Shown here: positions 1,588 through 30,714 of the stretch, one piece after another
Layout of the letters: each line of letters opens with the position of its first letter
Numbering within the stretch: position 1 is the stretch's first letter
Source: Diplocarpon mali
Lineage: Eukaryota; Ascomycota; Leotiomycetes; Helotiales; Drepanopezizaceae
NCBI GenBank assembly: GCA_024741835.1
Contig: JAENRP010000414.1
Span: 1 to 35,505, forward strand
Direction of reading: 5' to 3'
DNA length: 35,505 nt
The notes under the pieces: model-generated
Database searches by the model: none
Seen by the model: the letters and a program-made list of their open reading frames with translations, nothing else
Told to the model about the DNA's origin: nothing
Translations under genes and position numbers: made by a program

Positions 1588-1724
1588 ACTCGCAAGCTAG
1601 GCCTAGGAGTTAATTCCTTACTAAGAGTCGATTTCCTTTTAAGGCTAATTTTCACTCGTAAGCCAGGCCTAAGAGTCAATTCATCTTTAAAGGTAATTTC
1701 CACTTATAAGCTAGGCTTAAGAGT
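1588..1724 (+). repeat. palindromic 23-nt units, cluster of three in copia-1 (gag/integrase linker)
   Basis: Units at 1588-1610, 1654-1676 and 1702-1724. Each has outer arms ACTC/GAGT and inner arms AGGCC/GGCCT around one central base, with RIP changes. Starts are 66 and 48 nt apart, both multiples of three. All begin on the first base of a codon in the polyprotein frame and encode variants of TRKLGLGV. A truncated unit (tail aagagtcgat) lies at about 1619-1632 between the first two, as if a fourth copy lost its front half. On the opposite strand the same DNA encodes TPRPGLRV-like peptide, a product of the palindrome. Confidence 0.85.
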
Positions 1725-3144
1725 TAGTTCTTTTACTTCTACTTCTTATTTCTTATTAAAATTAAGGAATCGTTAGCTATATAATATAGGTATTAGTAAG
1801 CATATCTTTAATAATCTCTTTAAGTTTACCTCTTATATTACTTAAGATAATCTACCCTTTTTAGATATAGTTAATAAAGCTATTCAACCTTTTAATATTA
1901 GCACTTGCAAAGTTAATGCATTTAAATCTAATAGAAAGGTATATATTCTTAAGTTAATTAATACTCTTTATATACCTTAATTACTTATCTACTTATACTT
2001 AAGTAGTAAACTTAATAAAATCAAAGGCTTCTATCGAAATAGTAAGCTATTCCTATTTAATAAGAAGGAAATTTGCACTATTAATAATAATATATATATT
2101 ATTAAGGAATAGTCTTCTACTAACTCCTTTAATTATATAAGTAGATATACTTTCCTAGCTGCTATTAAGAATAGACCTTTTGATATTAAGCTTTAGTACC
2201 GTCGATTAAGCTACGCTAGCCTATAAATAGTCAGAAAGACCTAATCTGCTATTACTAATATATAGATTAAGGAAATAAAATTAGGAAAGACGCGAATCTA
2301 CGCGCCTTATAAGAAAGGCAGACCTCTTTAATACATTAATAAACGTTTAGCTTGCCCTCGACTTATAAAGGCACTTGACGAGATATACGTTAATATAATT
2401 CATTTGAAGCTAATTAGCCTTAACGGTTATAAGTACGCCTCTATCTTCATTTGCTTAGCCATAATAGCTAAGTAGGGATAGACTTATATAAATAAATATA
2501 ATGCCTTTAAGGTAAATAAGAAGATGATCAGCCTTTTACAAACTTAGTATAATCGCATAATTAAGCGGTAGAGAACTAATAAAAGTAAGGAGTACTCTCT
2601 TATATAAATGCAAATACTTATAGAAAACCTTAGTATAATTTGAAAGGAATCTACTTTATATATACTAAGATAAGATAGTAGATTAAAACGATTAATTCGT
2701 ATACTAATAGAAAAGTTGCAAATAGCTATAATTAACTAAAATATCCCTTCCTTTCTTTAGCCTTACCTCCTTCTTATAATAATATATATTACTAACCTTA
2801 CTACCTTTAATATTCTAAGCGGTAAGACTCTATATAAGGTCTTTTAGAATGATATTAAGCCTAATAAGGCCTATACTCCTTTAATCAAGTATCTTAAAGT
2901 ACTAGGCTAGTAAGTCTATATATTAATTAAAAAAGAAAAGCGAACTTAAAGTATTAAACTCGCTTTAAGAGTAAAGGTAAGTACTCTTATTAGATTTAAT
3001 AGTAGAAGTATTTATTAGATTTATATATTATTGCAAATAAAGGAAAAGATTATTTAATCATTTTATATTCAATTTGATAAAGATAGCCTAATTATAAAGC
3101 TATACCTTAAGGAAAATTCCTCTTTTTAATTAAAGGGTGATTTC

Positions 3145-3215
3145 ACTCTTAAGCTAGGCCCGCGAGTCACTTTTTAAAATAATGATAATTCTACTCTTAA
3201 GCTAGGACCGCAAGT
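3145..3215 (+). repeat. palindromic 23-nt units, pair in copia-1 (integrase/RT linker)
   Basis: Units at 3145-3167 and 3193-3215, starts 48 nt apart, in the same codon phase as the three upstream units (start positions all 1 modulo 3). The first is preceded by ttaaagggtgattt, a string that recurs at about 5018 and 5044 before the unit at 5063. They fall between the integrase and reverse transcriptase domains, a place where extra residues would be tolerated. Confidence 0.85.
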
Positions 3216-5019
3216 CGATTTAAGAGAAATTGATAAAGCTAAGCTTCTTACTTTAAAGAAGAGAGGAAGACCTTTTAGTTTAAAGAATAAGGCTTACCTT
3301 TAGCCTTTTAAGAAGAGAGCTACTTGCTCTATTGCTCTTAGATTTAAAGCTAATAACTTTAATAATAAGGAAGCTTATTTAGGCGCCTTTTATATAGCCT
3401 TCTTTAACTCTCTATATTTAAATAACTTAAAAATAGTCGAATAAGCCCTCTCTTACGCTAACGCTAATAAATAGCGATCTACGATCAACTTTAAGTATAA
3501 TTCCCTTGCTTATAAGGATATATAAATAGTAGTGAAACGCTTAGAACTCTCAAAAGACAATAGAGTACTTAGATTAAGGCTTGTCTTTAAAATAAAAAGA
3601 GACTAAAATAGGGAAATCTCTTAATAGAAGGTCAGATTCGTTATATAAGGCTATATATAATAATAAGGTTAAGATTACGATTAGACTTTTGTTAGAGTAT
3701 ATAAATCTATAGTTTAGAAGATCGCAATTGCGCTTATAGCGCTATACGACTTTAAGCTAGATTAGTTTAATATTAAGATAGCTTTCTTTAATTCAAAAGC
3801 TAACTTTAATATCTATATTAAGTTACCTCTTAAATATACTTAAAATAAGGTCGTTCTTTTACCTTAAGACTACTGTCTCAAGCTTCTTAAGGCCTTATAT
3901 AGCTTAAAGCAATCTTTACAACTATAGTAAGAAAAGCTACGGTTTGAGCTATAAAAGCTCGATTTTCAACCTTTTAATATTAATAATTGCGTATATATCA
4001 ACTGCGCCTTTCGGATTCTTATTATTATATATATCGACGACTTCCTTATAGTAGCTAAAAAGGGTGATATATATAATAAGTTTAAGAGAGATCTTCGCTA
4101 CCTCTTCAAGATCATAAGTAGCAAACCGGCTAACTACTTTTTAAGAGTATATATAGTTAGAGATTAATAAAATAGAACGATCTTACTTTATTAAAACGCC
4201 TATATTAATAAGGTTCTTAAACGTTTTTATATAACTAATTATAAAAGCATACTAACGCCTTTTGCTAATAGCTATAAAGTTTATAAAGTCAAATTTAAAG
4301 GCCAAGCCACTCTATAGGAAGTAAAGCTATATTAAAAGATCTGTAGTTCTCTATAGTACTTTGCGTACTTTATGCAATAGGATATACTAAATTACTGCTC
4401 TATTCTTAATAAATTCCTTACCAACCCTTTGCTATAATATATAGCAGCTTTAAAACGAGTTTTATAATACTTATAAGGAACGCGATTCTATTATACTACC
4501 TTCGAAAGTAAAAGAACTGACTTAAAGCTTTAGAAATTGTATAATTATTGCAATTTTAATTAGGTAGGCAATAGAGGAAGTAGAGCCTCCTATTCTAAGG
4601 CCGTCTTTTTCTTTAATAATAGTATAATTACTACTTCCTTTAAGCGATAGACTATTATCGCTCTCTTATCTATAGAAGTAAAGTATATTACTATATGCAA
4701 ATTCGTATAAAAGGCCTTTTAAATACGCTAAGTACTTAAGGAAATAGGCTATAATAGCAATAACGCCACTAAAGTCGAGATGATCTGCGATAATTAAAAA
4801 GCGCTTCATCTTATTAAAAACCCTGAATATTATTAAAGAACGAAGTATATTGATATCAAGTTCTATTATATTTGGCAAGAGCTTTAGAAAGGCTATTTAG
4901 ATCTTTAGTATACTAATACTAAAGATAACGCCGCCGATAGACTTATCAAAAGCTTAAATAGCTCTAACTACGCCGCCTTTATCAAATTATTAAATATAAA
5001 GGTTCTGCACCTTAATTAA

Positions 5020-5260
5020 AGGGTGATTTTTTTGATACTTCTATTAAAGGGTGATTTTTTTTACTCTTAGGCTAGGCCCGCGAGTTGATTTTGACTTTTT
5101 AAAGGGTGGATTTCCTACTCTAGAGTAGAGGGCGCTAGCGAACTCTACTCTATTTCCTATATCTATAGGTTGATTTTTTATATAAAACTATATATTATAA
5201 TAAAAGTTATAATATTATATATATTATTAGAAAGTACCTTTAAAGGTCTCCTTAAAGGGG
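5020..5260 (+). other. untranslated 3' part of copia-1 with palindromic unit, hairpin and polypurine tract
   Basis: Behind the polyprotein stop come two near copies of ttaaagggtgattttt (about 5018 and 5044), one palindromic unit (5063-5085, out of the polyprotein phase), and an inverted repeat gagtagag/ctctactc at 5123-5130 and 5143-5150 around an NheI-like gctagc. The run cttaaagggg at 5251-5260 directly before the LTR is the likely polypurine tract for plus-strand priming. Confidence 0.65.
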
Positions 5261-5884: not shown

Positions 5885-6093
5885 TTTAAGAATATTCTCT
5901 ACTATAGGTAGTTTAATTAAAGGATAATAATATTAAAGTTATTTTATACTTTAAGCAGTTCGCAGATAATAGGAATAGTCTATTCGGCCTTTAGGCAATT
6001 AGTAGGTTATTAATTAGCAAGTACGCTTAATATACTTAAGTTAAAAGAGAGAGGTTATTAGTTTAGCTTAATAGTATTACTATTGAGTAGTAA
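5885..6093 (-). pseudogene. copia-2 type pol fragment (integrase/RT linker region)
   Basis: These bases match 18372-18575 of copia-2 with scattered C/T and G/A differences, for example gcagataataggaatagtct against gcagacgataggaatagtct. Similarity stops near 6093. The fragment abuts a copia-2 type LTR without leader or 3' end, so the LTR copy most likely inserted into an older, already partial element of the same family. Confidence 0.7.
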
Positions 6094-6937
6094 GTAATAG
6101 TAGTAGTTGAAGAACTTAGAGACTTAGGAGGCTTGATTCCTAACTACAGGAGCAAAGCAATCTATATATACAAAATATCTTGAGCTTCTAGAACCTTCTA
6201 GTATATTAGAGTTATACTAGATTATAAATCAATATAGGTATACGTAATGCAATACGTAATCCTTTGATTTGTAATATAGTTTTGGCTAAACTTAGTACTA
6301 TAAGTCATAGCTAAATATAGAACTATGACTCATAGCTAGGATATAAAGTTCATAGCTAAATTTAGCATAGCTATGATTTCTAATCCAACTTAGCTAATAT
6401 AGTATAGAGACCTAAGATGGATAGGTCTTATAACATATATCATATGATCAGCGTAGGACGGTAAGAGGATAAAAGGGCCATCTTCTATATATAGAGATAG
6501 CGCGCGTTGCTATAAGTATTAAATATACCTTATACTTAGGACTTATTCCTAATATCTTGTCTAAAAGAGCCCGCTTATAGTACTTCCTCCTTTTATTTTT
6601 AAGTCTTCCCTTAGGCCTAATCTTATATTATCTCCCTTCTGTTTTATATTAGTGACCTATATAAGGACCGATTTCCTAAGATTTCCGTCCTTATACGACC
6701 TTATCGATCTCTTGGTTTATAAATAAGAGACTGGCCTTTTGAAAAATACATCTTTAAAATACTTATAGCATTTTAATCAACTTTAAAAACCTTATCCTTA
6801 ATTGCTTAATTACTTAGAACTATCGATTTTCATTTAGCAACTATTAATAACCTTAGATTTTCCCTTTTCGGCTCTGCTATAAAAACCCTTATTTTCTTCC
6901 TTAACTTTAAGATTTTCGGAATTTTCGGCTTCTTAGT
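6094..6937. other. non-coding stretch before gypsy-1 gag
   Basis: No convincing reading frame. Between 6303 and 6376 the motif catagcta recurs four times and makes small inverted repeats, such as agtcatag/ctatgact at 6303-6310 and 6323-6330 and the palindrome catagctatg at 6366-6375. TTC-GAA-TTC spacing at 6186-6198 fits a three-unit heat-shock element but may be chance. This stretch should hold the gypsy-1 5' LTR and leader; I could not find a matching second copy to prove it. Confidence 0.4.
6486..6493 (+). promoter_or_regulatory. possible TATA box upstream of gypsy-1
   Basis: The string tatatata sits in a GC-containing context (atagcgcgcg follows), about 445 bases before the gag ATG, a plausible place for an LTR promoter. 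In a sequence this AT-rich the match is weak evidence alone. Confidence 0.25.
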
Positions 6938-7323
6938 ATGAAAAGTTTAGCGAACCCTATAATAGTAATCTCAAATAGCAGTAGTTTTAAGTACTTAAGT
7001 AATACTAAGCGCAAACTCTAATTAAAAGTGCCTCTTTAGAATCTTTAGAAATCCGAATCTAATAATTCAGCCGCCTTAATTTAATAGAACTTTAAAAACT
7101 GCCTTAGAATTGTCTTTAAAGACCCCTTTATTCTAAGGACTAATAGGAATTAGCCTAGAAGCTAAGAAGAATCTTATATATAAACCTTATCTTAGAAATT
7201 AGTCTTTAATTAGGTAAACCTTATCTTATTACGATTAATTACAATACTTTTATTAGCTATTTAGCACTTACTTAAAATCTCTTAGCAAACTTGGATTAAA
7301 CTTTTAATAGAATTCGGAATTCT

Positions 7324-7346
7324 ACTCCTAGGCCTAGCCTATAAGT
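7324..7346 (+). repeat. palindromic unit in gypsy-1 gag, second codon phase
   Basis: 23 nt from actcctagg to ataagt. In the gag frame its first base is a third codon position, giving LLGLAYK rather than TPRPSL. The alternative frame across it would read STPRPSL. Same second phase as the unit at 12377. Confidence 0.75.
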
Positions 7347-8332
7347 AGAAGGATAAAAAGACGTTTATAAATAACTTAAGACTGCTACCTACTTCTTTAA
7401 TATTAATATTAGAAAATACTAAAAATAATAATAATTTTAAACTTTTCACTAACCTTTTATTTAAATCTTTTTAAACTCGTCCTAGTCACTTTAAAATTGA
7501 CTCAGATTTTAAACGTTCTTTAAGCCCTTTTGAATTTCAAAGTACTCCTTTTAGCAATCAATCTCGCAATATTAAAGCTTCTCCTTTACCCTTTATAGAT
7601 TCTATTAACTTAGATAGTTAATATAAAACGATAATAGCCGCATTTAAGGCTATTACTAATCACTTTCCCCTCCTTAATTCCCCTAATGCTCCTTACTTTA
7701 TAAGCGCTAATATTACTAATTTCCTTAAGTAATATAAGGAAACTTATTACAATTTTAATATTATATAAGAGGATATGATTTCTTAACTTCCTTACTATTA
7801 TAATTATATAAGCAAAGATATTATCAAATCCCTTCTTAAATAGAAAACTTATAATTTATAAGAACTCCTTATTAAGGCCTTTCAATCTGAATTCTAAGAA
7901 TTTGATAAATAATAGATTTATAATACTTTAGCTTTCTTAAAGGAATCTGTTTTAATCACTTAAACTCCTAAGGAACTTAAGAACTACTATCGGACTTTTA
8001 CTTATATATTAAATACCTTAATTAGCTAGAAAATACTTAGCAAAGTTGAAAGAGGCTGCCTTTTCTTACTTGGATTACCTATTGGCCTTTAAAATAAGAT
8101 TATCAAGCATTTTAAGATCGATAAGCAAGACCTTATAACCTTTGCCTTATTTAAGGAATTCTTAGCCTTTACTTTAAAATCAGATCTTAGTAAAAGAACT
8201 ATTAATATTATAAAATAGGAAAAAGCCCTTACTCCCTTTTATACTAAAGACCTTAAGAGTCTAGTCTAAGAATACTCAAAAGCTTTAAAAGTTATAAAGG
8301 AAGTAAAGAAGAACCTAGTAGTCATACCTTTT

Positions 8333-8355
8333 ACTTATAGGCCTAACTTAAAAGT
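8333..8355 (+). repeat. palindromic unit in gypsy-1 gag, main phase
   Basis: 23 nt from acttatagg to aaaagt, degenerate in its right arm. In the gag frame it reads TYRPNLKV, the usual Thr-first phase, downstream of the capsid-like part and before the Cys-rich site. Confidence 0.7.
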
Positions 8356-10409
8356 AAGATCCAACCTTAGAATTAAGGAACTTAAGACCTAATTTGCAAA
8401 ACTCTGAATCTAAAGCTTAAAAACTAGGATTAATAATCTCTTACAAGAAAAATAGCATATTCCTTAATTTGGTAATAGGTAAAACTCAGCTACTATAAGC
8501 CAACCTAGTAGTTCCTATTACTAGACTCTTGCTTTTTATCATTTAAAATAACTAGCTAATATAAGAACTTAATAGTTGATTAAAGAAGGAGAAATTGATC
8601 CTAACTAGCACTTTACTAATATTAATACTATAAGGTACTAAGGGAATAGCAATAGAAGAAGACTAACTTGCAACTTTTGCAATAATAAGAAACCCAATTG
8701 CCTTTTATATAAGTATTGCAACAATTGTCCTCTTTTCTATCGTTTTATTAATACTAAAGTTATATATATTAATAAGTATAAGATACTTTATATTAAAGAT
8801 CTTAAGCTAAATGCTATCCCTATTAAAAAATATCAGAATCGCTTATAGCTATAGATTATTCGAATAATAATATATAGTATAAAGTAAGATAAGGATTTGG
8901 CCAAATAAAAGCGTATTATCGAAATAAACTCTAAGGTCCTAACTTATATATATATAGGTCTAGCTAGCAACCTACCTAAAAGAGTACTTACTAACTAAAC
9001 TTTAAACTAAACTACTACTAAAGTCAAAGGAATCTCTATTTTAAAGTAGGTTAATAATAATATATCTGCTAATATTAATGCTACTTCTGTATTTAAAAAC
9101 CCTTAGAATACTCAGCGTCCTTTTAAATCTACTACTCTTTTAATACTAATAAAACTAGCCAAAGTCCAGAAATCAATACGTACAACTTAGGAATCTTAAT
9201 ATAAAGTCCAAACGCTAAAAGATACCTAATAATCTAAAACTATAATAGATAAAGATAAGCTAATATAGCAGATGAATTGATTAAGGATATAATAGATAAA
9301 GATAGCTTTAAGCTTAAAGATTAAGAAGTTGAAGTTATTACGCAGACCCTTGACCTTAAGTAAAAGAGACAGATATTAAAATAGGAAAAATTTATTAATA
9401 AATATACTAATTTAACTGCAATAGAGAAAGCTATAGAAAATGTTATAGCTTAGCAAATTAACCTTACATTTAAAGACCTATTTAGTTTAATTAAACAGTT
9501 TAATAAAGTATTAAGAAAGCATATCTTAATTATATCTAAAGATTTAAATAATAATAAGGAAATAGAAATTATAATATAAAAGAACTCTAAGAAGCACTTA
9601 GCCTTAATTAAATATCTTTAAATTATAGAAGACAAAGGAATCCAAAGGTACTATAATATTATAGTAATAGCTTTAATATCTTAGAATATTAATCGAAATT
9701 ATTCAATAGTTGCGATAAAAAGCCTTATAGTTATTTATTTTATAGAAGAATCAGTTAAAGCAAAGGCTTTGATCGATTATAGTTTAAAAGTTAATGCAAT
9801 AATTAGAAAAGTGGCAGAAATAGCTTAATTAATAATTATTAGCGATCGACTCCTTATTTATTCGACTGTCTTTAAATTAAAATACAATTTTAATAGATAG
9901 GTGAAAAATATAAAAGTTAAAGTTAAAAGGATTATTAATTATACTAACTTTCTAATAATAGAGAATTCTTCAAATGATATTCTTTTAAGAATGCCTTTTA
10001 TTTTAAAATCTTAGCTAATATTTAACTATCTTAAAGATAGTCTTATAAAAGCTAGTCTTTAAAATATAGATCGATCTTTAAAAGGATAAATAATTATTGC
10101 AAGAGATATAATCGAATTCTAGAATAAGGTTTTAAGAAATAATTAACTAATATAAGAGCTAAGCTTAATATTAATAAAAGAAGGCACCTAGTAAGGAGTT
10201 ATAGTAAAAGAAAGGTAAATTTGCCGATTTTAAATAATAGCAATTTAACTTACGGTTTTAGATTAAGAGTCAAATCTGGAATTTTAAAAAATAGTACAAT
10301 TGGCGTTTTATCGGATTAATAATTAAGAAAAAAGAAAAATAAGGTAGAGAAGAGGGTTTATTTTATAAATTTCGATAATTTACTAATTATTTTAAAAAAC
10401 CTAAAAACC

Positions 10410-10432
10410 ACTTATAGGCCAGACCTGTAAGT
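10410..10432 (+). repeat. palindromic unit in gypsy-1 between protease and RT
   Basis: 23 nt, reads TYRPDL(stop)V in the pol frame with the RIP stop replacing Gln. Thr-first phase. It lies about 650 nt before the first recognised RT motif. Confidence 0.8.
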
Positions 10433-12376
10433 AAAAAATAATAAAATTACTAATAATATTTCCATTTATGCACTTTAAATTAATAACTTAGAAAATCTTT
10501 TATTTATTTTTAAAAAGGAAAATTCGGACCGTTTTATAAGATTTAATAAAAAAGGAAAGAAGTAGAGAAGCATTATACTAGCTAATATTCGAACTATATA
10601 TAAAAGTAAGGCCGATAAAGTACAACTGATAGATTAGGGAATCTCTAATAGCTCAAAGCCTAGAGGACTAAATGATTAGTTTAAATAAGATAAGAAGCTT
10701 CGACCTCTAAAGCTAGGTAGCAAATTCGATAAGTTTATTATAGGCAGATTTTCTAATAAACCTATTAGATATCGGCTAATAAAAGAACATTTTAATATAC
10801 TAAAAATTGGAAATGACCTAATAGAGTGAGAACGCAAACTACTTTATAAAACCTTAATAAATCGAAAGGACGCCTTAGCTTTTAACTCAATAGAACTTAA
10901 TCAAATTTAAGAAGAGGTTACGCCTTATATTAAGATTAAGATAATACCTTACAAAGCTTAGTAAGAGAAAACATTTAAAGTTCCTAAAGCTCTTTAAGAA
11001 AAGGTAATCGAAATATTAAAGGATAGGCTAAAGCAAAGCGTTCTCGAATTCTATAATAGCCCTTATAGGAACAAATAGTTCTTAATTACTAAGAAAGAGA
11101 AGGGAACTTACAAATTAATAATAGTAATAGTAAAGATGAACTAAGTAACTATTAAAGATGCTAACGTTCTTCTAAATATAGATAAGTTCTTAAATGAATT
11201 CGCAGGATTAACCTATAGCTCTTTTATTAACTTCTTCTTTAAATACAACCAATTCATTCTTAATATTAAATTAAAAGATATAATAGCAATTCAAACCCCT
11301 CTTAGGCTACTTCAGATAATAAGATTACCTTAAAGGGCTATAAATTCGATTGCTCAATTTGTCTAAGTAATTTATAAGATACTAGTAGATTATATACCTA
11401 ATATTGCGCTCCCTTATATAAACGATATAAAAGTAAAAGGATTAAGATCATTCTATAACTATAAAGAAGTTCTCCTTAGCATATAACGATTTATAATAGA
11501 ATATATTTAAAACTTAAATTAGGTACTTATATAATTCGAAAGGGCAAGAGCAATAGTTGGTCCGAAGTTATAATACTATCTTCTATTAATAGAAATTATT
11601 AGTTTCATTACTAATTCCAATGGCCGAAGTCCTTAGAGGGCTAAAGTATTTCAAATCGATAAATAGAAGAGGTATAATAATATAGCAGAAGCTCGCGCGT
11701 TCATTAGCGTTATAGTATACTATTGCATTTAAATTAAGGATTTCGCTAAAAAGGCAGCACCTATTTATGCCTTATTTTAGAAAGAGGCTGAGTTTCAATA
11801 GGAGGAACCTTAAATAGAGGCTATAAAACAATTAAAGCAAGCGTTACTTAAAGCGCTATATTTAATTAAAATAGACTATAGAGCTAACGCTAGGCTAATT
11901 ATACTAACAGTTAACGTAAGCTTAATCAGATAGGGTACTATCCTTTAATAAGCTAATAGCTAATAAAAAAGATATCTAGCTTACTTTAAAAGTGGTCTTT
12001 AGAATCTAGTAAAGACAAAGTATAATACTATTAAATAGGAGTGCAAAGGCGCCTTAAAGGTAATAAAAAAGATAAGAAGCAACCTCTATAGCACTTACTT
12101 CATCCTTAAAACTAATACTAAAGTGCTAATAAAACAACTGAATAGAGTTGCAAGCGACTTACTAAGAGCTTTACTAATAAAATAGATTACTTAAATAAGA
12201 CTAATAGACTTTAAAGTCAAATATATTCTAGGAATGAAAAACACTACCGCTAATAGCCTTTTAAAAAGAACTTATCCCTATCCCTTTAATTTAATTAAAG
12301 AAGATGAAATAGATATTAATAAGTGAATAGAGAACGAAGTTAGTTATCTATTAATATATCACCTTAAAGGGACTCA

Positions 12377-12399
12377 ACTCGTAAGCCTAGTCTGCGAGT
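12377..12399 (+). repeat. palindromic unit in gypsy-1 between RNase H and integrase, second phase
   Basis: 23 nt from actcgtaag to gcgagt. Pol frame 0 is supported on both sides (RNase H end and IHKETGH), and in it the unit reads LVSLVCEL, so its first base is a third codon position as in the 7324 unit. Confidence 0.8.
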
Positions 12400-13811: not shown

Positions 13812-13834
13812 ACCTATAAGCCGGTCCTGCGAGT
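13812..13834 (+). repeat. palindromic unit near the gypsy-1 pol C-terminus
   Basis: 23 nt reading TYKPVLRV in the pol frame, Thr-first phase, about 50 codons behind the last recognised integrase motif, in a tail that is probably not conserved. Confidence 0.8.
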
Positions 13835-14000
13835 AAAGAATGCTAAAATACCCAATTAATTGTAACCTTAAGTTATTATTTCTAAAATATCCAAAGAATA
13901 TAAATAGGAATACTAAGCGATTTCCTAGCCTATTAATTATCTACCTTCCTATAATCCTTATTTTTATATTTTTAATAAGGTCGCCTCTTTTATTATTTAA

Positions 14001-15072: not shown

Positions 15073-15095
15073 ACTCGCGGTCTTAGATTAGGAGT
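15073..15095 (+). repeat. palindromic unit in the unrecognised frame (first of three)
   Basis: 23 nt reading TRGLRLGV in the open frame (Thr-first phase). It is not in a recognisable transposon domain but has the same length, arms and phase as the transposon copies. Confidence 0.8.
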
Positions 15096-16519: not shown

Positions 16520-16539
16520 TGTCCTTAAGCCTACTAAGC

Positions 16540-19500: not shown

Positions 19501-21670
19501 TCTATATATTAGCTAATACCTTAATAGGCTTTTAGCTTCTAATAGCTTTAGTAGCCTATTATCAGTTAATACTTTATTATTAGCAACTAGAAAGGACTAG
19601 TAATAGCAGTTTGAGGTTTTGCCGTTTTCTAGTTACGAGCCTGGCTTAGGAGTCGTTTTTAGTAAAACCGCAAGATCTACTCGCGGTCCCGGCTTAAGAG
19701 TCGATTTCCTAGAAATAGCAAGATCTACTCGCAGTCCCGGCTTAGGAGTCGTTTCTAACAAATTCGCGAATTTCACTTGCAGTCTTGGCCTAGGAGTTAT
19801 TTCTGCGAATTTCACTTGCGATCTTAGCTAAAGAGTTATCATTAGCAAATTTGCAGAATCCACTTGCAGTCTTAGCCTAGGAGTCATTTCTACTAAATTC
19901 ACTTATAATCCTAGCTTAGGAGTCATCTTTGAGGATACCTTGCAATCTACCTATAGTCCTGGCTTAGGAGTCATTTTTGCGAATTTTACTTATAATCCTA
20001 GCTTAAGAGTCCATCTATTCTCCTTATCCTTACTTAATTGTATTAGGGCGGAGAATGCACTTTCCTTAAAGGAATTCACTTATAGGTCTGGCCTAGGAGT
20101 CAATTTCTATAATATTACCTTTAAGATAATATAAAGTCTATCTTTAATTTTAACTTTAAAGATCACTTTATAATTATTATTTATAAACTATATAAATTGA
20201 TTATTGAAAACTCTAATATAATTTAACTCTATATAGATCTTGCGGCTAGATAAGAAATTAATACTTAAGCTAAGTATAAGGAGAACATTTTGCAAAAGGA
20301 AAGAAACGCTAGTAACATTCATCTCTACTATACCTATTGAGTCTATATATAACCTTCTACTACTAACCTTAATAGAGCGCCTTTTTATTTTGGTAAGCAG
20401 GCCTTTAAATAGGTAGGATTTATTAGTTATATATGCTATATAACTAGTATTACTATATTAGTCAGATTCAAGGATCTTATAAAGATCGGCTTTTAAAACG
20501 TAGGCATCTTTATTATAATTATCGTTTGAATTATTAAAAGTGGATTTAGGTTCAAATGACCTACTATTATTATTAGAGGTATCTGCTAAAGTTCTGGCTA
20601 AATAGCCTTTTCCTTTGCCTTTCTTTAGTAGTTGCGGCCTTTGGCGGGATAAGGGCAGTTTGCTTCTTGACTTCTGCTTCGATTACTTCTTAATATTAAA
20701 GCTAGCGACTATATTAATCAGTTGCCTTCTAACTTTACAATTAGTAATATTATAAGTACTATTATAGAAGTAGCATCTCTAATAAGCTTAAGGGCTTATC
20801 CTACGCTCCTTCCTCTTCTTAGGCTTATCGTTACCTTATAACGCGGCATTTGCCGATTTAGAGTATCCTTCGAGGTCTTACTCAATAGTTCAAAGGAGGT
20901 CGATCTTCTTATAGATCTTAAGGTTAGGTTAGATAAGAAGAGATTATTTCATAATAGTGAACTTAAAAGGGAAGCTATTAAGTAGGAAACTAAAAAGCTA
21001 AGTTTCCTTAAAAGTTATAGCTATCCTAAGATCTGCGGCTCTTACTCTCCTTCTCACTTTATATAATATAGATTAGGTAGAGTTTATATTTATATCTATA
21101 TCCTTACTATCTTTATCTTTTTTATATTAAAATAAAGTGATCTGCTATAGTAGATATTAGGTATTAAAGGTAATTGTTTAAGAGTATTTTACCTTTAAAG
21201 TATCCTATCTTATCTTTGCGTTATTATAAACTCGAATAAAATCTTAGTCTTTATTGCTTAAACCTCTATTGATCTTAAGCTTGCATTTAGCTAAGGCCAG
21301 CCTATACTCCTTCTCCTTTTCTACATTTAAAATCTGCCTTTGGGATTCTTAATTATTATCTACTAAAGCTCCTAGGCTAAGCTTATTTAGTATATCTGGC
21401 AAATCCTTAGCAGTTGTATTAGCTATTGAAGTGGAAGTAGACGAATCAGTAGAGAGAGTATAAAGGGCTATTCTCGCATATTTAATAAGTATCTTTTAAA
21501 TTGCTATTTCAATGCCTTTGCTCTTAAAGTAAAGCTCTAAATCGTTGAACTATCGTTGCCAGTTCTTCTAAGAGAGTTAAAGGTCTTTAAACTTAGTGTT
21601 TCGATCAGAATCGGATGCTATTGCCGTTTCGAATAGAATTGCATTTAAAATCAAATAAATTAAATAGTTA
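16540..21670 (-). pseudogene. copia-2 gag-pol polyprotein relic
   Basis: One reverse frame (codon starts 0 modulo 3) holds from gag to the C-terminus with no net frameshift. Gag near 21630-20500 has SDSDRNTKFKDL at about 21610 and a zinc knuckle at 20735-20775 with CYFYNSTYNITNC, i.e. C-x2-C-x3-H-x4-C with Cys and His mutated to Tyr. Then comes the palindrome array 19631-20100, integrase (about 19500-18600), and RT with YFNTFAPTVRIDT near 17860, CKxYNIKNAF near 17785 and the catalytic YIDD at 17524-17535, intact. The C-terminus near 16550-16640 reads VADGFIKLL, the copia ADxLTK-like end. The start codon was not found; the frame is open upstream past 21670. Stops are nearly all TAA and TAG. 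Confidence 0.85.
19631..20100 (-). repeat. ten-unit array of the 23-nt palindrome inside copia-2 pol
   Basis: Unit starts: 19631, 19679, 19727, 19775, 19814, 19862, 19901, 19949, 19988, 20078. Spacings are 48, 48, 48, 39, 48, 39, 48, 39 and 90 nt, all whole codons. All ten are in phase with the polyprotein and read as TPKPGLRV-like peptide (for example TPRPRLQV, TPKPGLRV). Spacers share strings such as gcgaatttcacttg and are Phe/Ala/Lys/Ser-rich, so the array grew partly by tandem duplication. It lies between the gag/protease part and integrase, hence a tandem peptide repeat of about 150 residues in the polyprotein. Confidence 0.92.
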
Positions 21671-22355: not shown

Positions 22356-22610
22356 TGTTACGACTTGCTCTCGAGCGTACAGAAGGGCGAGAGTCGAATA
22401 ACGCTAACTATATTACCTTAAGAGGTACGCTATATAATAGAGAAGAAAAGATAAAGAAGAGAGAGTCTTTAGTAGAGCTCCTTTAGAATAAGTATAGGTG
22501 CTTTACTAGTGTATACGTAATCCAGCCACCTTGCTACCTTAGCGTGCACCTGACTTTGTATACCTGACTTCGATATATGATAATACCGTATATATAATGC
22601 GGCTATAATA
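22356..22610 (-). repeat. gypsy-2 3' LTR (255 bp)
   Basis: Aligns gap-free to 29254-29508 over 255 bases (shared strings such as gccaccttgctaccttagcg). On the + strand it runs tgttacgac to ctataata. It is less mutated than the other copy (keeps cgagcg where the other has aagcg). Next to it, 22611-22626 is a C-rich run, in reverse caaagggggg, the polypurine tract. Confidence 0.93.
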
Positions 22611-24267
22611 CTACCTCCCCCCTTTGAAAAACTGCGCCTATGCAATTGTATCTATAGGCGTATTATCCTTTAGGTCCTTATAATCGTTAACTCTATTGTT
22701 ATATGACCTAAGCTAGCTTAATAGCGCCCTTAGTAGCCTCTTAGCTTAAGGGTTTTTTAAATGGAAATCTCAAATAGCATACGGCGCTGTTATAGCATTA
22801 GAGCATAGGTACTATTCGAGGTCTTTATTAGCTCCTTTCCACTTAATCTAATATTCGAGCTTCTTAGCTTGAATATAAGATCTAATTATTTCTTCTATCT
22901 TCTACTTTTCCTATTTTAATAGTACTTTAATTAGGGTAAGAGGTTCCTAAGCTTGGCCTAGTAGAGGATTAGGAATATATCTCTATAGTAAGTAGGAGTA
23001 GAATATAGGGTAGATCGAATAGAGCGAATTAGGCAATTATAGCTTCTAGCTTTCTCTTAGCTTTTTTAATACTTTTACTAGGCCGTACTACTTATTAAAG
23101 AGCTTTCGGCTCGACTGGTCTAGTTTCCAATTTTTAGTATTAATTAATATATTATCTCTTATAGTCTAATCAATTAGCTGGTAGTAGAGATTTGCAAGCC
23201 GTTTTATTTTAGCCTATTATGCTTAAAGAGATAATTAAGCGAATTAGACTACTTTTTAAGCTTTAATAGCTATGCAAAGTGCTATTTTACAATTTAATTT
23301 CTCAATTGCTATTTATAAAGGCTTTAAGTTAATCAAATTCCAAGATAAGCGAGCTTTATAGCCGTTTAGTATTTAAAAAGGGGAAATTTGCCCTAGGGAT
23401 TCGTAAGGTAAGGTCAATTAGGCAATATCTATCAAAGGTAAGAGATAACTCCAATTGTCTTAATAATATAAGTAAAACGGTCTAAGGCGTTATTTTAAAT
23501 ACTAGTTTATAATCTTAGTTTAGCTATCGATATTAGGGTTATAAGCTATAGTTAGCTTAACCTTTATATCTAGTATCCGATAGAGCTCTTTCTAAAAGGA
23601 AGAGACGAATTAGGCGCCTTTATCTAATAGAATTAAGTTAGGTATACCGAAATAGCGTATCTAGTGAATTAAAAATAACTCTATAAGGCCTTTTATATCA
23701 ACCGTTTTATAGTATAGGATTGATACTACCTTCTTTAATAATCGGTCTATTATTATTAGTGCAAAGTTATAGCCGAGTTCGTCAAATGGCAGCTTTATAA
23801 AATCCATTATTAAGTGCTAATATACTTATTTAAGGATTAGCAAGGGTTATAAGAAACCTAGTGCTTTATTATATCGAGCTTTTATCCTTAAATAATAATA
23901 TTTTTAAATATATATGCTAATATTGCTACTAAGGCTTTTCTAATAGTATTTTCTTCCTATTAAAAGTCTGGTCTTTCTAATTCCTGCGTATGCGACGCAG
24001 GGTTACTTATATATATAATAAATTAGGGCTATTCGCAGTTCGGAAGGTTAGGATAGTATAATAAGTCTACCTTAGAAGAAGAGTTTGCCTTAGCTAAGTT
24101 TATAGTCGAGGCTATAGCTCTACGCCTTATCTCGGAACTTCTATAACTTAAAGGAGGTCTTATTTGCTTAAATGACTTTATTGATAATATAATAGTTTGC
24201 TATATTATACTCGACCTTAGACATTAGGTCGGCAGGTGCCTTTATTAGTGCGATAGGTATAATTGTT

Positions 24268-24335
24268 ACTTATAGGCTAGGCCTAGGAGTGGAATTGATC
24301 TGCGCTAAAGTCACTTATAGGCCGGGCCTAGGAGT
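24268..24335 (-). repeat. palindromic units, pair in gypsy-2 (RNase H/integrase linker)
   Basis: Units 24268-24290 and 24313-24335, 45 nt apart. Both are in phase with pol and read as TPRPGL(stop)V, the stop a RIP product of Gln. They lie between RNase H and the integrase zinc site. Confidence 0.88.
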
Positions 24336-26229
24336 AGAATCGCCTTTAGTAGTAAGTACTTCTATAGAGAGCTTATTATTAAGTAAGAGCTGCTAATAGC
24401 GTAAAGCTTATTTCCTAGCCTTAAGAGGGGTCAGCTCTTAATCTTAATATAAGAGTATATTAGCTAGCGTATTTGTTATACTTATTTAATATATAATAAG
24501 GAAGTTGAAGTTAGCGAAGAACTCCGCCTAGCGAGCCTATTAGGCTATTAAGTCCTTAATTATTATAAAATACTTAAGGGCTTTATGATCTATATATATA
24601 TATACTATTTTCTAAGCCTTAAGTAGCTTTGCCTTATACTAGTAGAACAATTTAAAAATCGCTAGGAGCTCCTTATTATAAATAGGATAATTCAGCTTAG
24701 CGTTATTTATAGTCTTTAAGAAGTACTTAATTAAGTAGTAGTTCTTATCTTCTTAGAGTTAGGAAAGTACGCCAGCGACTATGCCATTAGAAGCGTCGGT
24801 CTTAAACCTTATCTACTTCTAAAGGTAATAGTAGTATAAAATCGGGGTTATTTAAAGCCTTATATGTAAAGCTTCTTAAGCTTCCTTATAAGTGTTATTA
24901 AAGTTAAAAGGAACGTTTCCTATAAGAGCTATTAAAGGTCGGCAGATATAACTATAGCTTTAAATAAACCTTTAATAGAAGTTACAAAACCCTAAGAAGC
25001 TTTATATGCTATATACATTCTTAGTGTATTTCTATTCCTAAATGATTAAGACCTTATTAAAGTCTACCTTAATTTTATAAACTCTAATAATAAACCCTAA
25101 GAACCTAGTCTTAATAACCCTGAACTCGCTTTTCTTAATATCTACTTAAAGGCTATAGCATTAGAGAATTCTTAAGATCTTCTTAATATAAATCTTATAA
25201 TTAAGGGAGTTTTTTAAGTAGATTAGAATATCATTTAAATAGGTAGAGTAAAAATCGTTAAGGTAGTTAAAGAGAATATTATTAATAAACTATTAAAAGG
25301 TAGTAGGCCTATTTATCAGCTTGAATGGCAAAACCTTGTATTTATAAGTCTTATAACGTATGCGAAAGGTAGTTAGGTCCTTAGTATCAGCTAATATGCA
25401 GATATAGTAGAAGGCTTATTATATATCGATTTTTATAAAAATATAAGCTTTCGATATATATACTATTATCTTATTAATAAAGGGAATTAGGTAAGGGTCT
25501 TTCTTTATTAAAGCGTTTAGTTTCTAGTAGTCGATATATAAATATAAGGAGCTATTAGCTTTTCTAATAAAGAGGATTAAGGCTGCTTAAGGGGAACTCG
25601 AAGCTTTGATAAATCCTTTATATAAGTTCTTGAGAATATAGCTCTTGACCTTTAAGAGCTATTTATTAGTAAGGCAGTAGAGGGGTTTAATTATTAAGTT
25701 ATTCTCGCCTATTAGTTCGATTTTATAATCTACCCTTAGCCTAGGTTCCGGCAGTTAATTAAAGGCCTAGCAATTAAAAACATTCTTAAATTTAATATAT
25801 TAAAGCAGGAGCTTTTAATCTATTAGCTTATTATTACTCTTATACTTGGCTTGCAGCGCCGAACTAAGGCTAAGGGAGCTAATTTCAGCCTGCCTAACCG
25901 ATTCTCGGTAATTAATTTCTTAGCAATTGATTTCTTAGCAATTGATTTCTTAATTTAGATTATAAATAAAGCTTATAAATATAAACTCTTTAAGCGCCGG
26001 TTCTTAAGTTTATATAGCTTATTTTACCTTAATTATAAAGTGGTAGTAAAAGGCGCTAATTGCTAAGGCTAAGATTAGGCTAATTTAATAAGCTATCTTT
26101 AAAAGAGCATTTCTCTTTACTAAAAGAGTGAGTAAAGAGTCTAGTACTCTTAGCAAGGCCTTCTTTATATAGTTTAAATCTCTTTTCAAGTTTTTAAAGA
26201 AACTACTATCCTTAGGTTTATAAAAGGCC

Positions 26230-26342
26230 ACTTATAGGCTAGGCTTAAGAGTGGAATTCGAATTTGCAGTTTTTACTTATAGGCCGGGACTAGGAGTAGG
26301 ATTCGAGTTCGCGGTTTTTACTCGCAGGCCGGGATTAGGAGT
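26230..26342 (-). repeat. palindromic units, three in gypsy-2 (protease/RT linker)
   Basis: Units 26230-26252, 26275-26297 and 26320-26342, exactly 45 nt apart, all in pol phase. The 22-nt spacers are near copies (ggattcgagttcgcggtttt), so unit plus spacer was tandemly duplicated. The third keeps the best palindrome of the group, with actcgcaggccggga visible. Confidence 0.9.
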
Positions 26343-26949
26343 AGGATTCGAGGCGTTATTACTTACTAGTATTAAGAGCTAGGCTTAGGCTATTCTTAGG
26401 TCTTTATCCTTAGCGCTTATTATAGCTGCTTAATAATCGATATCTTATTAGGCTATTAAGGGTTTTATTAGCTATAAGAGATCGATTAGTATATATTAAT
26501 TAAAGTAGGAGACGATAGGTATATCCTTAAGCTAAGATATACTATTTTTCCCCTTTCTATAGGACTATTTAAGGTTATAGTACTTTAAGAACTTCCTATT
26601 AATTAAAACGTCAGTTGCTTTTAAGCTTATGATTAAGAAAAGGAAGTTTATTTATCGCCTATTAATTATAAAGGTAAGTAAGATAGCGAATCGAATAGTT
26701 TCTCCTTTAAGGCTATTATAGCTAATAAAGGTAATTGGTTTAAGCAATTTAATAAACTTTACCTTAAGTCTTTAAAAGAGCTAATATATTAAAGATATCT
26801 TAATAATACTGAAAATATTAGCTCTACTATTAATATAAGTAACTATTTTAATAAATAATCCATTTTAAGCTAGTTCTATAGGAACTAAGAACTAGCGGCC
26901 GCCTATTAATAGGCAGAAATCAAAATCTAAGTCTTTTTATAAATTATAA

Positions 26950-28310
26950 CCTATACTATAGTAGAAGTCTTTATTATAACTTAGCAGTTTCTTAATAGTA
27001 GGTCGTTTTCTATCTTAACTTTAGCTATTATAAACTCGCCCTACTTCTTTAGCTTAAGGCAGTCTATTATATAATAACTAAGGGCTTTGCAGTTATAATA
27101 GAGACTAGACGACGGCTTTAGGCTAGCGGACCTTTTTTAATAGGCCGCCGGCAAAGGAGAATGAGTATAGGAAGCTAAAGAGGTAGCTATAGCTATAGGT
27201 CTTTATAACTCCCTTTTTAGTATACTTAAGATACGGTCCTTTAAAGGAAAGAACGCAATAGCAAAGGCGACTTATTAAGCATTATAAGCTTCTTCTTACT
27301 TGATATTACAGGCCTCGCGATCTGCAATAGCTAAGAACTCATTTAAAGTAGTATAATTATTATTCATTTTATACTTCTCTACTCAAAGGTCATTCTTTAA
27401 GATTAAGGAGACCTTTTTATAAATATTATTAAATTAATAAGACTAATCGATCTTATTAACTATAGTAAGGGTAATGAACTTAAATTAGAACTTATTATAT
27501 AATATTAAACCTATAGTTAGCCTGCTATATTTAAGCTTAGCAGATTAAATATAGTTATAATTAAAGAACTTTTAATCTAAGACCTTAAGGATATTAGTAA
27601 TATATATAAACTTATTAGTAAAAATAGGATCTATATATTATAGGATTAGGTTTTAAGCTTTACCTATTATACACTTAAAATAAGTAGTAATCTAGTCCTC
27701 TTTTAAAGTAAAGTTACTTAAGTACTTTTAAATAAATACTTTTATAGCCATCTTTTAAGTATTATAAGTAATTTTGCCCTAGTAGTTGCTAAAATAGGTT
27801 TAAAGGTACTTAATCTAATAAGGGTCGACGGCTAGGATTAAAGGTCGGATAATTAGAAGGTAGTAGTTTAAGGGAGGTAATAAATCGGCGGTAAAGGACC
27901 GAGTGTTTTAAGGGCTAGCACTTAAGAAAGAAGGGGTAATAGTATTATTTTAAAAAGCGGCAGCTATAGCAGCGCTAATAAGGTTTGCGATTTCGGCCTG
28001 CTAAGTAGTTGAAAAGAGAGGGGCTAATATAATAAGAGTAAATGTTATTAGAAAGAGTATATCTTCTTTCTTAACTTCAATCGATAGTAATAAAGTATTT
28101 CGAAAATCCACTTATAGGCTAGGATTAGGAGTAGAATCTGTACTAAGAGAGGTTTCTTCTTAAGTAGGCTTAAGAGGAGGAAGATTTCTAAGACCAGGGT
28201 TGGCAATAAGGCCTATAGAATTAGTAGTAGTAAGGCCTAGTAGTAGAGGTGCGGTTAACCTTTTACTTCTCTTAAGTAGTATAAGATTAAAGGTTATAAG
28301 TACTAACTCT
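26950..28310 (-). pseudogene. gypsy-2 gag relic
   Basis: Reverse frame 1 modulo 3, different from pol, so gag and pol were joined by a frameshift or an indel separates them. Near the C-terminus at about 27050-27100 it has a zinc knuckle, YYNCKALSYYIIDC: C-x2-C-x4-H-x4-C with the first Cys and the His mutated to Tyr. The N-terminal part reads RLTAPLLLGLTTTNSIG near 28255 and AEIANLISAAIAAAF near 27985. A palindromic unit at 28110-28132 is in gag phase (TPNPSLxV). The start codon was not resolved; the frame is open to about 28310. Confidence 0.75.
28110..28132 (-). repeat. palindromic unit in gypsy-2 gag
   Basis: Single 23-nt unit. Its phase follows the gag frame and not the pol frame (reverse start 28132 is 1 modulo 3, as is the zinc knuckle), which shows that phase tracks the local reading frame. 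Confidence 0.85.
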
Positions 28311-29253
28311 TCTTATATTATTTAATTTAATCTAAAGGGACCTAATGCTAAATAGTAACCTATTTAAAAGGGGGAAGATTAGTATAAGCAAAGCTATATA
28401 TATTCTTAAAGCCTTTTAATAGAGTATATATTAAGGTATTATAAGTTTATAAGTCTTAAGGAAGAAGGTTTTACTTTGGGATTATATCTCTTTACTAATC
28501 AAGAGTTATAATAAGGTTATCTAAAGGTATAATGCAAATCTAAGGAAGTAGGGTCTAAGGATCTAAAGCTTATTACTCTACTAAAGTTGACCTAGTCTCT
28601 AATAGTATAGTATAACCTACTAAGGCTAACTAAGTCTTTATATATATATATAAGTATAGGTCTCCTAGTTTATACCCGAGTATAAGAAGGAAGGAGTAAG
28701 GAGCTTTAAAGAGTATAAGGAGAGTTGTTAATAAGTATAGGTCAATAGGAAGTATAAAGAAGGTCGATAACTTATTTATAAGGAGGGTTTTTCGAAGAGT
28801 CGAATTATATTCGAGGGTTTAAAGGAGTAAGGAGCTTTGAAGAGTAAAAGGAGAGTTATCGATAAGTATAGGTCGATATAGTATAGAGTATTTATAAGGG
28901 AAGGAGAGAGTTAAAAAGAGAAAAGTTATTATACTACTTTAAGCAGTAGCCTATGCTAGCGAAGCGAGGGTATAGTGAATAATTTTTTTTTTAAATTGAA
29001 ATTGAAGGTGAATTTCCATTTGCTAAATAGAGTAGGTAAGGGGTCGAAAAAACGAGCTAATCTTATATTTAAAGGTTATTATTTAGCTTTCTTTAAAAAC
29101 TAGATTAGTAAGATCTAGGCGTTATATACGAGTTGCTTAAAGCAGTTTATAATAGGAGAATTGAAATCGAGTTACTTAAGGCAGTTTGAAGTAACGATTC
29201 TAAAGGGGGTAGATATTAAGCTTCTTAGCAGAGGTTGAGTTGATCTTTTCTTA
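28311..29253 (-). other. gypsy-2 leader with internal direct repeats
   Basis: About 940 bp without a gene. Two direct repeats of about 56 bp (ggagtaaggagcttt..) lie at 28693-28748 and 28824-28879, 131 nt apart. Two 20-bp repeats (cgagttgcttaaagcagttt type) lie at 29129-29148 and 29168-29187. A T10 run is at 28983-28992. The primer site should be the reverse of the bases just left of 29254 (reverse taagaaaagatcaactc); I cannot assign the tRNA. Confidence 0.65.
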
Positions 29254-29508
29254 TATTACAACTTGCTCTTAAGCGTATAAAAGGGCAAGAGTCGAATAAC
29301 ACTGATTATATTACCTTAAAAGGTATGCTATATAATAGAAAAGAAAAGATAAAGAAGAAAGAGTCTCTAATAGAGCTCCTTTAGAATAAGTACAGGTGCT
29401 TTACTAGCGTGTATATAATCTAGCCACCTTGCTACCTTAGCGTGCACCTGACTTCGTACACCTAACTTCGATATATGATAATACTATACATATAATACGA
29501 CTATAATA
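29254..29508 (-). repeat. gypsy-2 5' LTR (255 bp)
   Basis: Pair of 22356-22610, more RIP-mutated (tattacaac against tgttacgac at the same end). Followed by tatat at 29509-29513, the right target duplication. Confidence 0.93.
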
Positions 29509-29806
29509 TATATTTCTTTCTATTATAAAATAAGAAGTAGAAATATACCTTTATCACTTCTGCTCTATAGATAACGCAACCTTTATACCTTCTTATTTTC
29601 TTTATAATATAATATTCAGTCTTACTTAATAATGCCTTTAGATATATTATAGACTTTACCTCTTAGCTATAATAGCGAAAAGTAAAGGAGCCTATTAGCT
29701 TATAGCCTACCTTAAACCTTCCTAATTAATTGGTCTTAGTCTTTACAATTAAGTCATTTTAATAAAGAGAGATGCAAGTACTATTAATAAAGAAAATCCG
29801 ATTATC

Positions 29807-29829
29807 ACTTGCGGTCTTAGCCTATAAGT
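29807..29829 (+). repeat. palindromic unit in the unrecognised frame (second of three)
   Basis: 23 nt reading TCGLSL(stop)V in frame, Thr-first phase. Confidence 0.8.
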
Positions 29830-30691
29830 TAATTTTATTAGAAAGCAAGTCTTAGATTATCAGATCCTACTAATTGGATAAAGGCCAGCTTTTAAAAGCT
29901 TTAATAAGTAGATCGGCTCTTAATCGGATATAAAACTCACTCTACTTGCGAAGAAGATAAGTCGATAGACTTCTTAAGCACTTGGTTCAAAATCTCAACT
30001 AGCTTATATAATTATAAAAATGAAGTAAAAAGAGATCTTGCGGCCTATTACTAATAATAGTAACCCTATTATAGTAATAACAAAATAAGGGCACCTTTTT
30101 AAAATGCGCTTAAACAAACTTTATAAAACTGGTAGTTTTATAGCCTTTTGCAATAACTATATAGCTATTTGCAATAAGAATACTTTGGAAAATAAGACTT
30201 AAATCTCCGATCTTATCTTTTCAGTCTTTGCTTTAAAGCAACCTTTAGTACTTTAATAGATTAATATAAGTAAAACCATTGCACCTTTTAAGGCAGCTTT
30301 TCATCTTAAGAACTGTAGCAGCCTTTTTAAAGCCATTATTAATTAGCGCTCTTAGATAGATCCCTCTATTATAATCGAAGTATAGGAGTTATACCTTTTT
30401 AATAAGGACAAATTGAAAATCCACCTTATAGAATATAATCAAAAACTCTTTAACGCCCTTATTAAGGCTTAGACGAATATTATAAATACTAAGTCGCTTC
30501 TTTATAGACTTAAGTCTTAAGGATAATGCAATAAAGTAAATGCTATTTAAGAGCCTAATATACTAATTAATAAAGGCATTATTATAAGAAAATTCGGAAA
30601 AGAGATAAACTAAGACGCTAATATAGTATTAGACCCTAATTTAGGAACTAATCTCCTGTTTTTACCCTTAAGCTTAGAAACGCTAAGACTG

Positions 30692-30714
30692 ACTCGCAAG
30701 CCCAGCCTGTAAGT
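30692..30714 (+). repeat. palindromic unit in the unrecognised frame (third of three)
   Basis: 23 nt reading TRKPSL(stop)V in frame, Thr-first phase, about 50 codons before the stop. Confidence 0.82.

Follow-up and report, generated by a model that had tools for sequence, protein, structure and literature searches.

The DNA analysed here, referred to as the window, is the 35,505-nt contig JAENRP010000414.1 of Diplocarpon mali (assembly GCA_024741835.1), contig 414 in a genome of 676 contigs and 49.4 Mb. It carries members of four families of long terminal repeat (LTR) retrotransposons, copia-1, copia-2, gypsy-1 and gypsy-2, and in all of them recurs a 23-nt, GC-rich palindrome, which is the subject of this report. 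The window has been mutated by repeat-induced point mutation (RIP), as read from the depletion of CpA and TpG (0.38 and 0.37 of expectation), the excess of TpA (1.31; CpG 0.87) and the lack of any open frame of at least 150 codons. The copia protein of a less mutated copy elsewhere in the genome (locus L032) matches P0001, a predicted protein of Diplocarpon coronariae, at 92%. For D. coronariae, an assembly of 51.2 Mb has been published, of which copia elements make up 20.74% and Ty3 elements 5.67% (PMC11527701). The carriers of the palindrome in the window are the following:

1-144 and 5366-5509, LTR tails of copia-1, 94% alike.
562..5016, + strand, RIP-mutated copia-1 polyprotein with gag, protease (PR), integrase (IN), reverse transcriptase (RT) and RNase H (RH), in this order (tblastn with P0001, 58% over residues 12-1491).
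5922..16036, + strand, left part of gypsy-1, broken up by nested insertions, edges approximate (Pfam on read-through translation with X at stops; colinear copies on contig 1).
16037..22222, - strand, copia-2, nested within gypsy-1 (LTRs 16037-16232 and 22027-22222, 93% by self-comparison).
17311-17994, - strand, RVT_2 domain of copia-2 (Pfam on read-through translation with X at stops).
22358..29508, - strand, gypsy-2, nested (LTRs 22358-22610 and 29256-29508, 88.5% by self-comparison).
29509..33750, + strand, right part beyond the nested insertions, of which 29509-30107 is gypsy-1 (matches to L088 and others) and the remainder presumed gypsy-1.

RT, RNase H or integrase domains and LTRs are present as markers of the Ty1/copia and Ty3/gypsy classes, with the LTRs of gypsy-1 not located. 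In read-through frames of the plus strand (5901-15800, X at stops), the gypsy-1 integrase H2C2 domain scored above the Pfam cut-off at about 12603-12770, and two matches to RNase H at about 11814-12131 both fell below it. The coding match of gypsy-2 runs from 28276 to 22617 on the minus strand (tblastn with the D. coronariae prediction P0108; 57-66%). Pfam detected nothing on the strands opposite to the coding ones (minus for copia-2 and gypsy-2, plus for copia-1) and no domain in five of the six frames of 29501-35500. Gypsy-1 copies on contig 1 carry the palindrome sites of 7324, 8333, 10248, 10410, 13812, 15073 and 29807 in window order; in one of them the spacings of the 7324, 10248 and 15073 sites are kept and the 29807 site follows 1.4 kb later. 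This colinearity implies that copia-2 and gypsy-2 are nested in gypsy-1, and that the unrecognised reading frame to which an earlier, sequence-only reading had assigned some palindromes is at least partly interrupted gypsy-1: the copies at 15073 and 29807 belong to it, and the copy at 30692 presumably does by its position. The same reading's counts for copia-1 (6), copia-2 (13) and gypsy-2 (6) held, the remaining eight copies lying in or around gypsy-1. Two further pieces resemble copia-2: 33751-35505, up to the right edge of the window, is an inverted second copy of its left end (90% over 1756 nt to 20467-22221), and 5508-5921, to the right of copia-1, is an additional LTR piece of copia-2 type (83-89% to 21845-22259 and 33751-34127). 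A 65% relative of gypsy-1 (L008, C1:290609-293631) has the counterparts of sites H and J, listed below, about 0.8 kb apart, compared with about 9 kb; it is possibly a deletion derivative.

Each half of the palindrome follows the half-site ACTC-S-CGG-K-CC, and the centre base is free. A scan of the window with the pattern ACTYRYRRKYYNRGMYTARGAGT, allowing up to three mismatches, gave 51 strand matches at 34 places, compared with a mean of 0.55 and a maximum of 3 in shuffled sequence; at up to two mismatches, 34 matches came from 33 places. All 33 copies counted earlier were recovered among the 34 places. The extra place, 27568, is regarded as a weak chance match, and a looser pattern adds a copy at 13812. 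Across both strands of the genome, 11,408 matches (5775 + 5633) were found at up to two mismatches, a strong excess over the 12 (7 + 5) of a reversed control, and since 33 places yield 34 matches in the window, the copy number can be put at about 11,000. If spaced as densely as in the window, these would occupy about 11.8 Mb, or 24% of the genome, which lies near the published LTR content and would allow few copies elsewhere than in such elements. No copy occurred in 39.5 kb around 11 host kinase loci, where about nine would be expected under an even spread. Elsewhere in the genome the palindrome occurs less mutated, as ACTCGCGGKCCNGGMCCGGGAGT; exact matches to ACTCGCGNKCCNGGMCCNGGAGT number 113 (control 0). 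The fifth base is G in both halves at seven places and C in both at one, so the usual element is slightly asymmetric. The copies in the window fall into the following sites, for which the codon position is that of the ACT opening the core:

1588..1724, + strand, site A, copia-1 gag-PR linker; three units (1588, 1654, 1702) in the TRxPGxGV orientation, codon position 1.
3145..3215, + strand, site B, copia-1 IN-RT linker; two units (3145, 3193) in the TPxPGxRV orientation, codon position 1.
5063..5085, + strand, site C, copia-1 3' untranslated region (UTR), between the end of the open reading frame (ORF) and the LTR; noncoding, no stop-poor frame across 24 loci.
7324..7346, + strand, site H, gypsy-1; probably codon position 3 (weak).
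8333..8355, + strand, site I, gypsy-1; codon position 1, weakly supported.
10248..10270, + strand, site K, gypsy-1, upstream of RNase H; codon position 1.
10410..10432, + strand, site L, gypsy-1; codon position 1.
12377..12399, + strand, site P, gypsy-1 RNase H-integrase linker; codon position 3, a clear exception to the phase rule.
13812..13834, + strand, site O, gypsy-1, decayed copy; no clear frame.
15073..15095, + strand, site M, gypsy-1; position 1 of a locally stop-poor frame, which differs from the one extended from RNase H.
16370..16519, - strand, site E, 3' end of copia-2; three units (16370, 16436, 16497), no stop-poor frame, probably noncoding.
19631..20100, - strand, site A', copia-2 array upstream of integrase/SH3; ten units spaced by 39, 48 or 90 nt, all at position 1 in the RVT_2 frame.
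24268..24335, - strand, site F, gypsy-2 RNase H-integrase linker; two units, codon position 1.
26230..26342, - strand, site D, gypsy-2 PR-RT linker; three units at 45-nt spacing, codon position 1.
28110..28132, - strand, site G, gypsy-2 gag N-terminus; codon position 1.
29807..29829, + strand, site J, gypsy-1; no clear frame.
30692..30714, + strand, site N, presumed gypsy-1; codon position 1 (two copies only).

The presence of the same palindromic DNA in copia and gypsy elements, within interdomain linkers, was thus borne out. The independence of the copies was judged by clustering 190 distinct copies from the examined loci by their masked flanks; most of these loci were gathered through the motif itself (up to three mismatches), which biases the set of sites by the pattern, towards conservation. 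Of the 19 clusters obtained, two were single weak matches (27568 and L075:704), and 17 sites were named. A lone motif copy outside all flank clusters, L051:1984, is perhaps a further site. The copies thus occupy about 17 places in four LTR-retrotransposon families, the rest of their number being due to tandem or transposon multiplication, and the flanks of these places are not alignable with one another over 100 nt, except for the arrays A and A', which fall in one cluster with an alignment of 62.6% over 123 nt. Since these two belong to different families and face opposite ways relative to the gene, they were counted separately; their alignment gives a hint of exchange.

Multiplication in place is evident as well. 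Units within coding linkers are spaced by 39, 45, 48, 54, 66, 72 or 90 nt, all multiples of three, and those of site E by 66 and 61 nt. The number of units varies among copies of one element (two or three in the copia-1 IN-RT linker, one or two in the gypsy-2 RH-IN linker), the observed differences being 45-48 or 61 nt, as in tandem change, and never 30 nt; in L053 one 61-nt period between cores seems to have been lost. Most of the 33 window copies are tandem units or inherited, not separate insertions. These data bear on an explanation that requires no insertion by the palindrome itself, in which an ancestral linker minisatellite was passed among retrotransposons, by recombination or RT template switching at the palindrome, and was then homogenised by exchange of units. 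Besides the variable unit number, the period missing from L053 and the likeness of A and A', this would account for the 45-48-nt spacing that recurs across families and for the flank AGGGGTGATTT common to sites B and C of copia-1, which at site B encodes RGD and is present in relatives too. Against it, the remaining clusters cannot be aligned beyond the core over 100 nt, both orientations occur, and gypsy-1 has lone copies at points unrelated to one another. We consider a minisatellite origin unlikely. In the copia-1 3' UTR, 29-30-nt tandem repeats (AAATCACCCCTTAAT...) were also seen (L073:424-521), 75% similar over 32 nt to the strand adjoining the IN-RT core.

Immediately outside the core, both flanks share the consensus nRAWTYn, and a flanking consensus extends to about 37 nt. 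The next-but-one base, read outward, is a purine in 24 of 24 units on each side (several units per site), and nRAWTYn is matched at four of five positions by 12 of the 17 sites on each side, compared with 11% of background 7-mers. Because RAWTY is self-complementary, this consensus could represent either an outer palindrome or a duplicated target. An extended outer palindrome was rejected (inverted-flank test, p 0.91). When the left and right flanks of each of 22 units were compared as direct repeats, the longest match averaged 3.68 versus 3.08 in shuffled pairs (p 0.003), and with one unit per site the agreement was in excess at a shift of 30 nt (0.479 versus 0.381, p 0.002; p 0.0025 with half credit for transitions and p 0.037 with purine/pyrimidine identity only). 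A shift of 30 nt corresponds to 7 nt beside the 23-nt core and hence to a net gain of ten codons, and the direct repeat suggests a 7-nt target duplication. If so, the insert would be 30 nt and ten codons long, instead of the eight residues first proposed. The two 7-mers agree in one to six of seven bases per unit, with six at site G and five at C and L; site C in L073 is preceded by TGATTTT plus a run of T and followed by TGATTTT. The gag-PR linker of P0001 is 26 residues longer than that of P0003, a Rhynchosporium protein, and 30 longer than that of P0002. The former difference fits one insertion of ten residues plus one 48-nt duplication of 16, and in view of the latter it is no proof.

Reading frames were called from the stops per frame within 150 nt on either side, over 2 to 24 copies per site. 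A clear stop-poor frame places ACT at codon position 1 in sites A, B, A', D, F, G, K, L, M and N and at position 3 in P; F and N rest on smaller differences, and N and P on two copies each. Weak frames were obtained for H (position 3) and I (position 1) and none for C, E, O and J. Site C, with near-equal stop values in the three frames, serves as a negative control. With each insertion place counted once, ACT stands at position 1 in 10 of the 11 clear sites (P ~1.3e-4 at 1/3 per frame), or 11 of 13 with the weak sites (P ~2e-4), both by hand arithmetic; among window copies at clear-frame sites, the figure is 25 of 26. The bias that had been reported as 27 of 29 copies in codon phase is thus real, while that count had treated tandem units as independent. 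Two causes were tried and rejected as sufficient. Avoidance of stops does not explain the phase, as the consensus read with ACT at position 2 is also nearly stop-free. The codon phase of the target explains part of it: RAWTY starts at codon position 1 in 25 of its 49 occurrences in copia-1, in 12 of 27 in gypsy-2 pol, in none of three in the gag stretch of gypsy-2 and, among host ORFs, in 76 of 218. The share expected by chance thereby rises to about 0.47-0.49 for transposon ORFs and 0.35 for host ORFs; against the former, hand arithmetic leaves 10 of 11 with a p of 0.003-0.005. The bias therefore requires selection only in part. Retention only where eight in-frame residues are added was not supported. 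A 3' UTR copy is present in all nine copia-1 loci fetched regardless of the motif, the copy at 5063 being noncoding and those at 16370-16519 probably so, and at site P in L090 a perfect core, ACTCGCGGTCCTGGCCCGCGAGT, lies in an open frame of 117 codons and is read in another frame, as LAVLARE.

These exceptions bear on whether the conserved unit is the peptide or the DNA. P0001 contains TREPGPGV twice in its gag-PR linker and TPGPGPRV three times in its IN-RT linker; judged from their sequence, the two peptides are the two orientations of one palindrome. An octapeptide TxxPGxxV with a function common to the polyproteins, such as a spacer, a host-factor motif or a processing site, would be in keeping with its reading at 10 of the 11 clear coding sites, with the position of sites at domain joints and with its presence in the predicted proteins P0001, P0108 and P0109. 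Among 17 site representatives, 17 of the 23 core positions show no transversion; those that do are 9, 12, 15 and 19, plus 10 and 14 in one site each, and the three freest (9, 12 and 15) fall on the third base of a codon when read in the common phase, as selection on the peptide would give. Third positions 3, 6, 18 and 21, on the other hand, show no transversion variation, and of 108 genome words able to encode TPGPGPRV by any codons, 104 fit ACT...CCG CGA GT, the other four being shown with CCA; ACT accounts for 34 of the 85 copia-1 threonines, the element's own motif units included. Add to this the LAVLARE reading, the same core in 3' UTRs, two different peptides according to orientation and relatives that manage without the motif, and a shared peptide function, the alternative named in the sequence-only reading, is weakened and appears very unlikely. 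The evidence favours a unit at the DNA level, because noncoding 3' copies exist and both orientations occur in one protein.

Such a unit need not be mobile. A cis-acting site, either a putative two-fold symmetric protein-binding site or an RNA hairpin aiding several retrotransposons, could be retained at the DNA level wherever it is tolerated, and the palindrome contains CGG-N7-CCG, which is in the style of sites for fungal zinc-cluster factors. Its conservation is mirror-symmetric, positions 9 and 15 varying alike (G/T, C/A) around the centre at 12, as fits a DNA palindrome; noncoding copies are retained; and the folding energy of unmutated forms is -12.7 to -17.7 kcal/mol, compared with -7.9 for one RIP-mutated form. 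At site H, comparison with a gypsy-1 relative of 65% identity gave transversions at 0 of 20 fixed core positions and 80 of 465 flank positions (p 0.025). A second relative gave 0 of 20 versus 36 of 348, which is not significant (p 0.12), and two close copies were uninformative. Hairpin pairing was rejected as the conserved feature, since mismatched combinations of positions 9 and 15 appear to be common among the listed words. Numerous tandem copies within coding linkers would also be unusual for such a site, and we regard a cis-acting role as quite unlikely.

Relatives at 55-58% identity lack the palindrome. P0002 and P0003 are without both inserts, and among the 107 copia protein homologues in the matches listed, from 7994 candidates at most, the motif expression matched P0001 only. 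Three other copia families of the genome (L031, L038 and L042) showed no motif in the 3.3-3.7 kb examined of each. A protein search with the motif stretch of P0001 gave three matches among 120 candidates listed, all from D. coronariae: P0001 itself and two others, both with the motif, the gypsy polyprotein P0108 (E 0.07) and the gag-type protein P0109 (E 0.24). P0108 omits the PR-RT linker array present in P0109, as though it were an annotated intron, which may be an artefact of the gene model. A joined query directed at shorter proteins gave one match, a D. coronariae gypsy piece, among 7991 candidates listed; thresholds of this kind could overlook one isolated copy in a host protein. The DNA word had no match in IMG/VR and GTDB contigs, and the literature searched, with most subscription papers outside its scope, held no description of the element.

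The explanation we favour, tentatively and at a little under an even chance, is a minute palindromic insertion, carried by nuclear retrotransposons, whose mobility we infer and whose nearest parallel in principle is the Rickettsia palindromic element (RPE). It starts from the observed sequence, the number of its places and families, the phase bias, the flank consensus and the absence from the relatives examined. According to it, the 23-nt palindrome would have entered about 17 places in the four families by transposition-like insertion into AT-rich nRAWTYn targets, probably with duplication of seven target bases, so that 30 nt, or ten whole codons in an open frame, would be added each time. 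Survivors would be those in interdomain linkers (gag-PR, IN-RT, PR-RT, RH-IN), at the gag N-terminus and in 3' UTRs, and the phase reading T-x-x-P-G-x-x-V would be favoured by placement in linkers together with the codon make-up of the target. Tandem multiplication, core-to-core recombination, a rise to about 11,000 copies along with the transposons and mutation by RIP would have followed. Transfer from element to element and the local growth of tandem arrays also play a part.

Several observations weigh against this explanation. In addition to the clustering of A with A', unit-number differences that never equal 30 nt and the freedom of third codon positions, the signal at shift 30 is one of 14 or 18 shifts and amounts to about 0.04 when corrected; other shifts also gave signals (for one unit per site, p was 0.035 at 28 and 0.047 at 39; for all 23 units, 0.008 at 39 and 0.038 at 38), and no duplication is evident at M (1/7) or at F, O and P (2/7). 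The act of insertion is what we infer here, neither an enzyme nor an empty site having been found: an exact-match search for an empty site C returned none, and would have missed mutated ones, and no transposase was met, no search aimed at one or at a longer element with the same ends having been made. All nine copia-1 loci found regardless of the motif carry it, so the insertion must be old. The more specific claim, that the palindrome moves by itself in the nuclear genome of a eukaryote, with nRAWTYn targets, a 7-nt duplication and a frame-neutral gain of ten codons, is possible and rather doubtful.

If this more specific claim is true, the palindrome could live in the coding sequence of other transposons, as a parasite of parasites, and we know of no smaller such element. 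In-frame palindromic insertions have so far been a bacterial and mitochondrial curiosity; here they would be nuclear and spread over two retrotransposon superfamilies, in which less mutated copies stand next to RIP-mutated ones, and this makes the spread of very short palindromes and their tolerance in coding sequence testable. Polyprotein linkers could be built from foreign DNA, and translated repeats common to unrelated proteins, as a caution, can originate at the DNA level. Apart from the palindrome, GC-richer, low-complexity GCY/ACT-like triplets lie amid AT-rich DNA at 32597-33297.

Among known systems, miniature inverted-repeat transposable elements (MITEs) have an inverted-repeat structure, an AT-rich target and a target duplication. 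The palindrome is like them in its structure, its target and a possible duplication (shift 30, ~0.04 corrected); unlike them, it has a single base between its inverted halves, is far shorter and has, to our knowledge, no parent transposon. Mitochondrial GC clusters and hairpin elements of fungi and sponges are described, in the part of the source used, as short palindromic, hairpin-forming repeats that sometimes lie within genes (PMC2800124). The present element shares with them its shortness, its palindromic, hairpin-forming structure, its genome-wide spread and its position inside genes in some cases; it differs in that the copies lie in nuclear-type LTR retrotransposons on large contigs and show a codon phase. 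PARCELs are characterised, in the portion of the paper drawn on, as coding tandem repeats with DNA dyad symmetry that encode 25 amphipathic residues and are linked to mobile elements in some taxa (PMC2996958). Coding tandem repeats of dyad-symmetric DNA are found here too, whereas the motif is one of eight residues rich in Pro and Gly (8-12-residue linker), the array spacing is mostly 13-16 residues and noncoding copies exist. The closest likeness is to RPEs, palindromic repeats of about 150 bp that, as far as the consulted portion of the source goes, are inserted in frame into coding sequences unrelated to one another and are found outside coding sequence as well (PMC10969869). The comparison made in the sequence-only reading holds in principle, the present element being palindromic, dispersed and in frame within ORFs of unrelated genes (four families, 10 of 11 sites in one phase), and fails in size and host: RPEs are bacterial, measure about 100-150 bp and lie in host genes, whereas the palindrome, absent from the 39.5 kb around 11 kinase genes, has 23 nt (30 with the repeat) and is a nuclear, eukaryotic sequence found here only in LTR retrotransposons.

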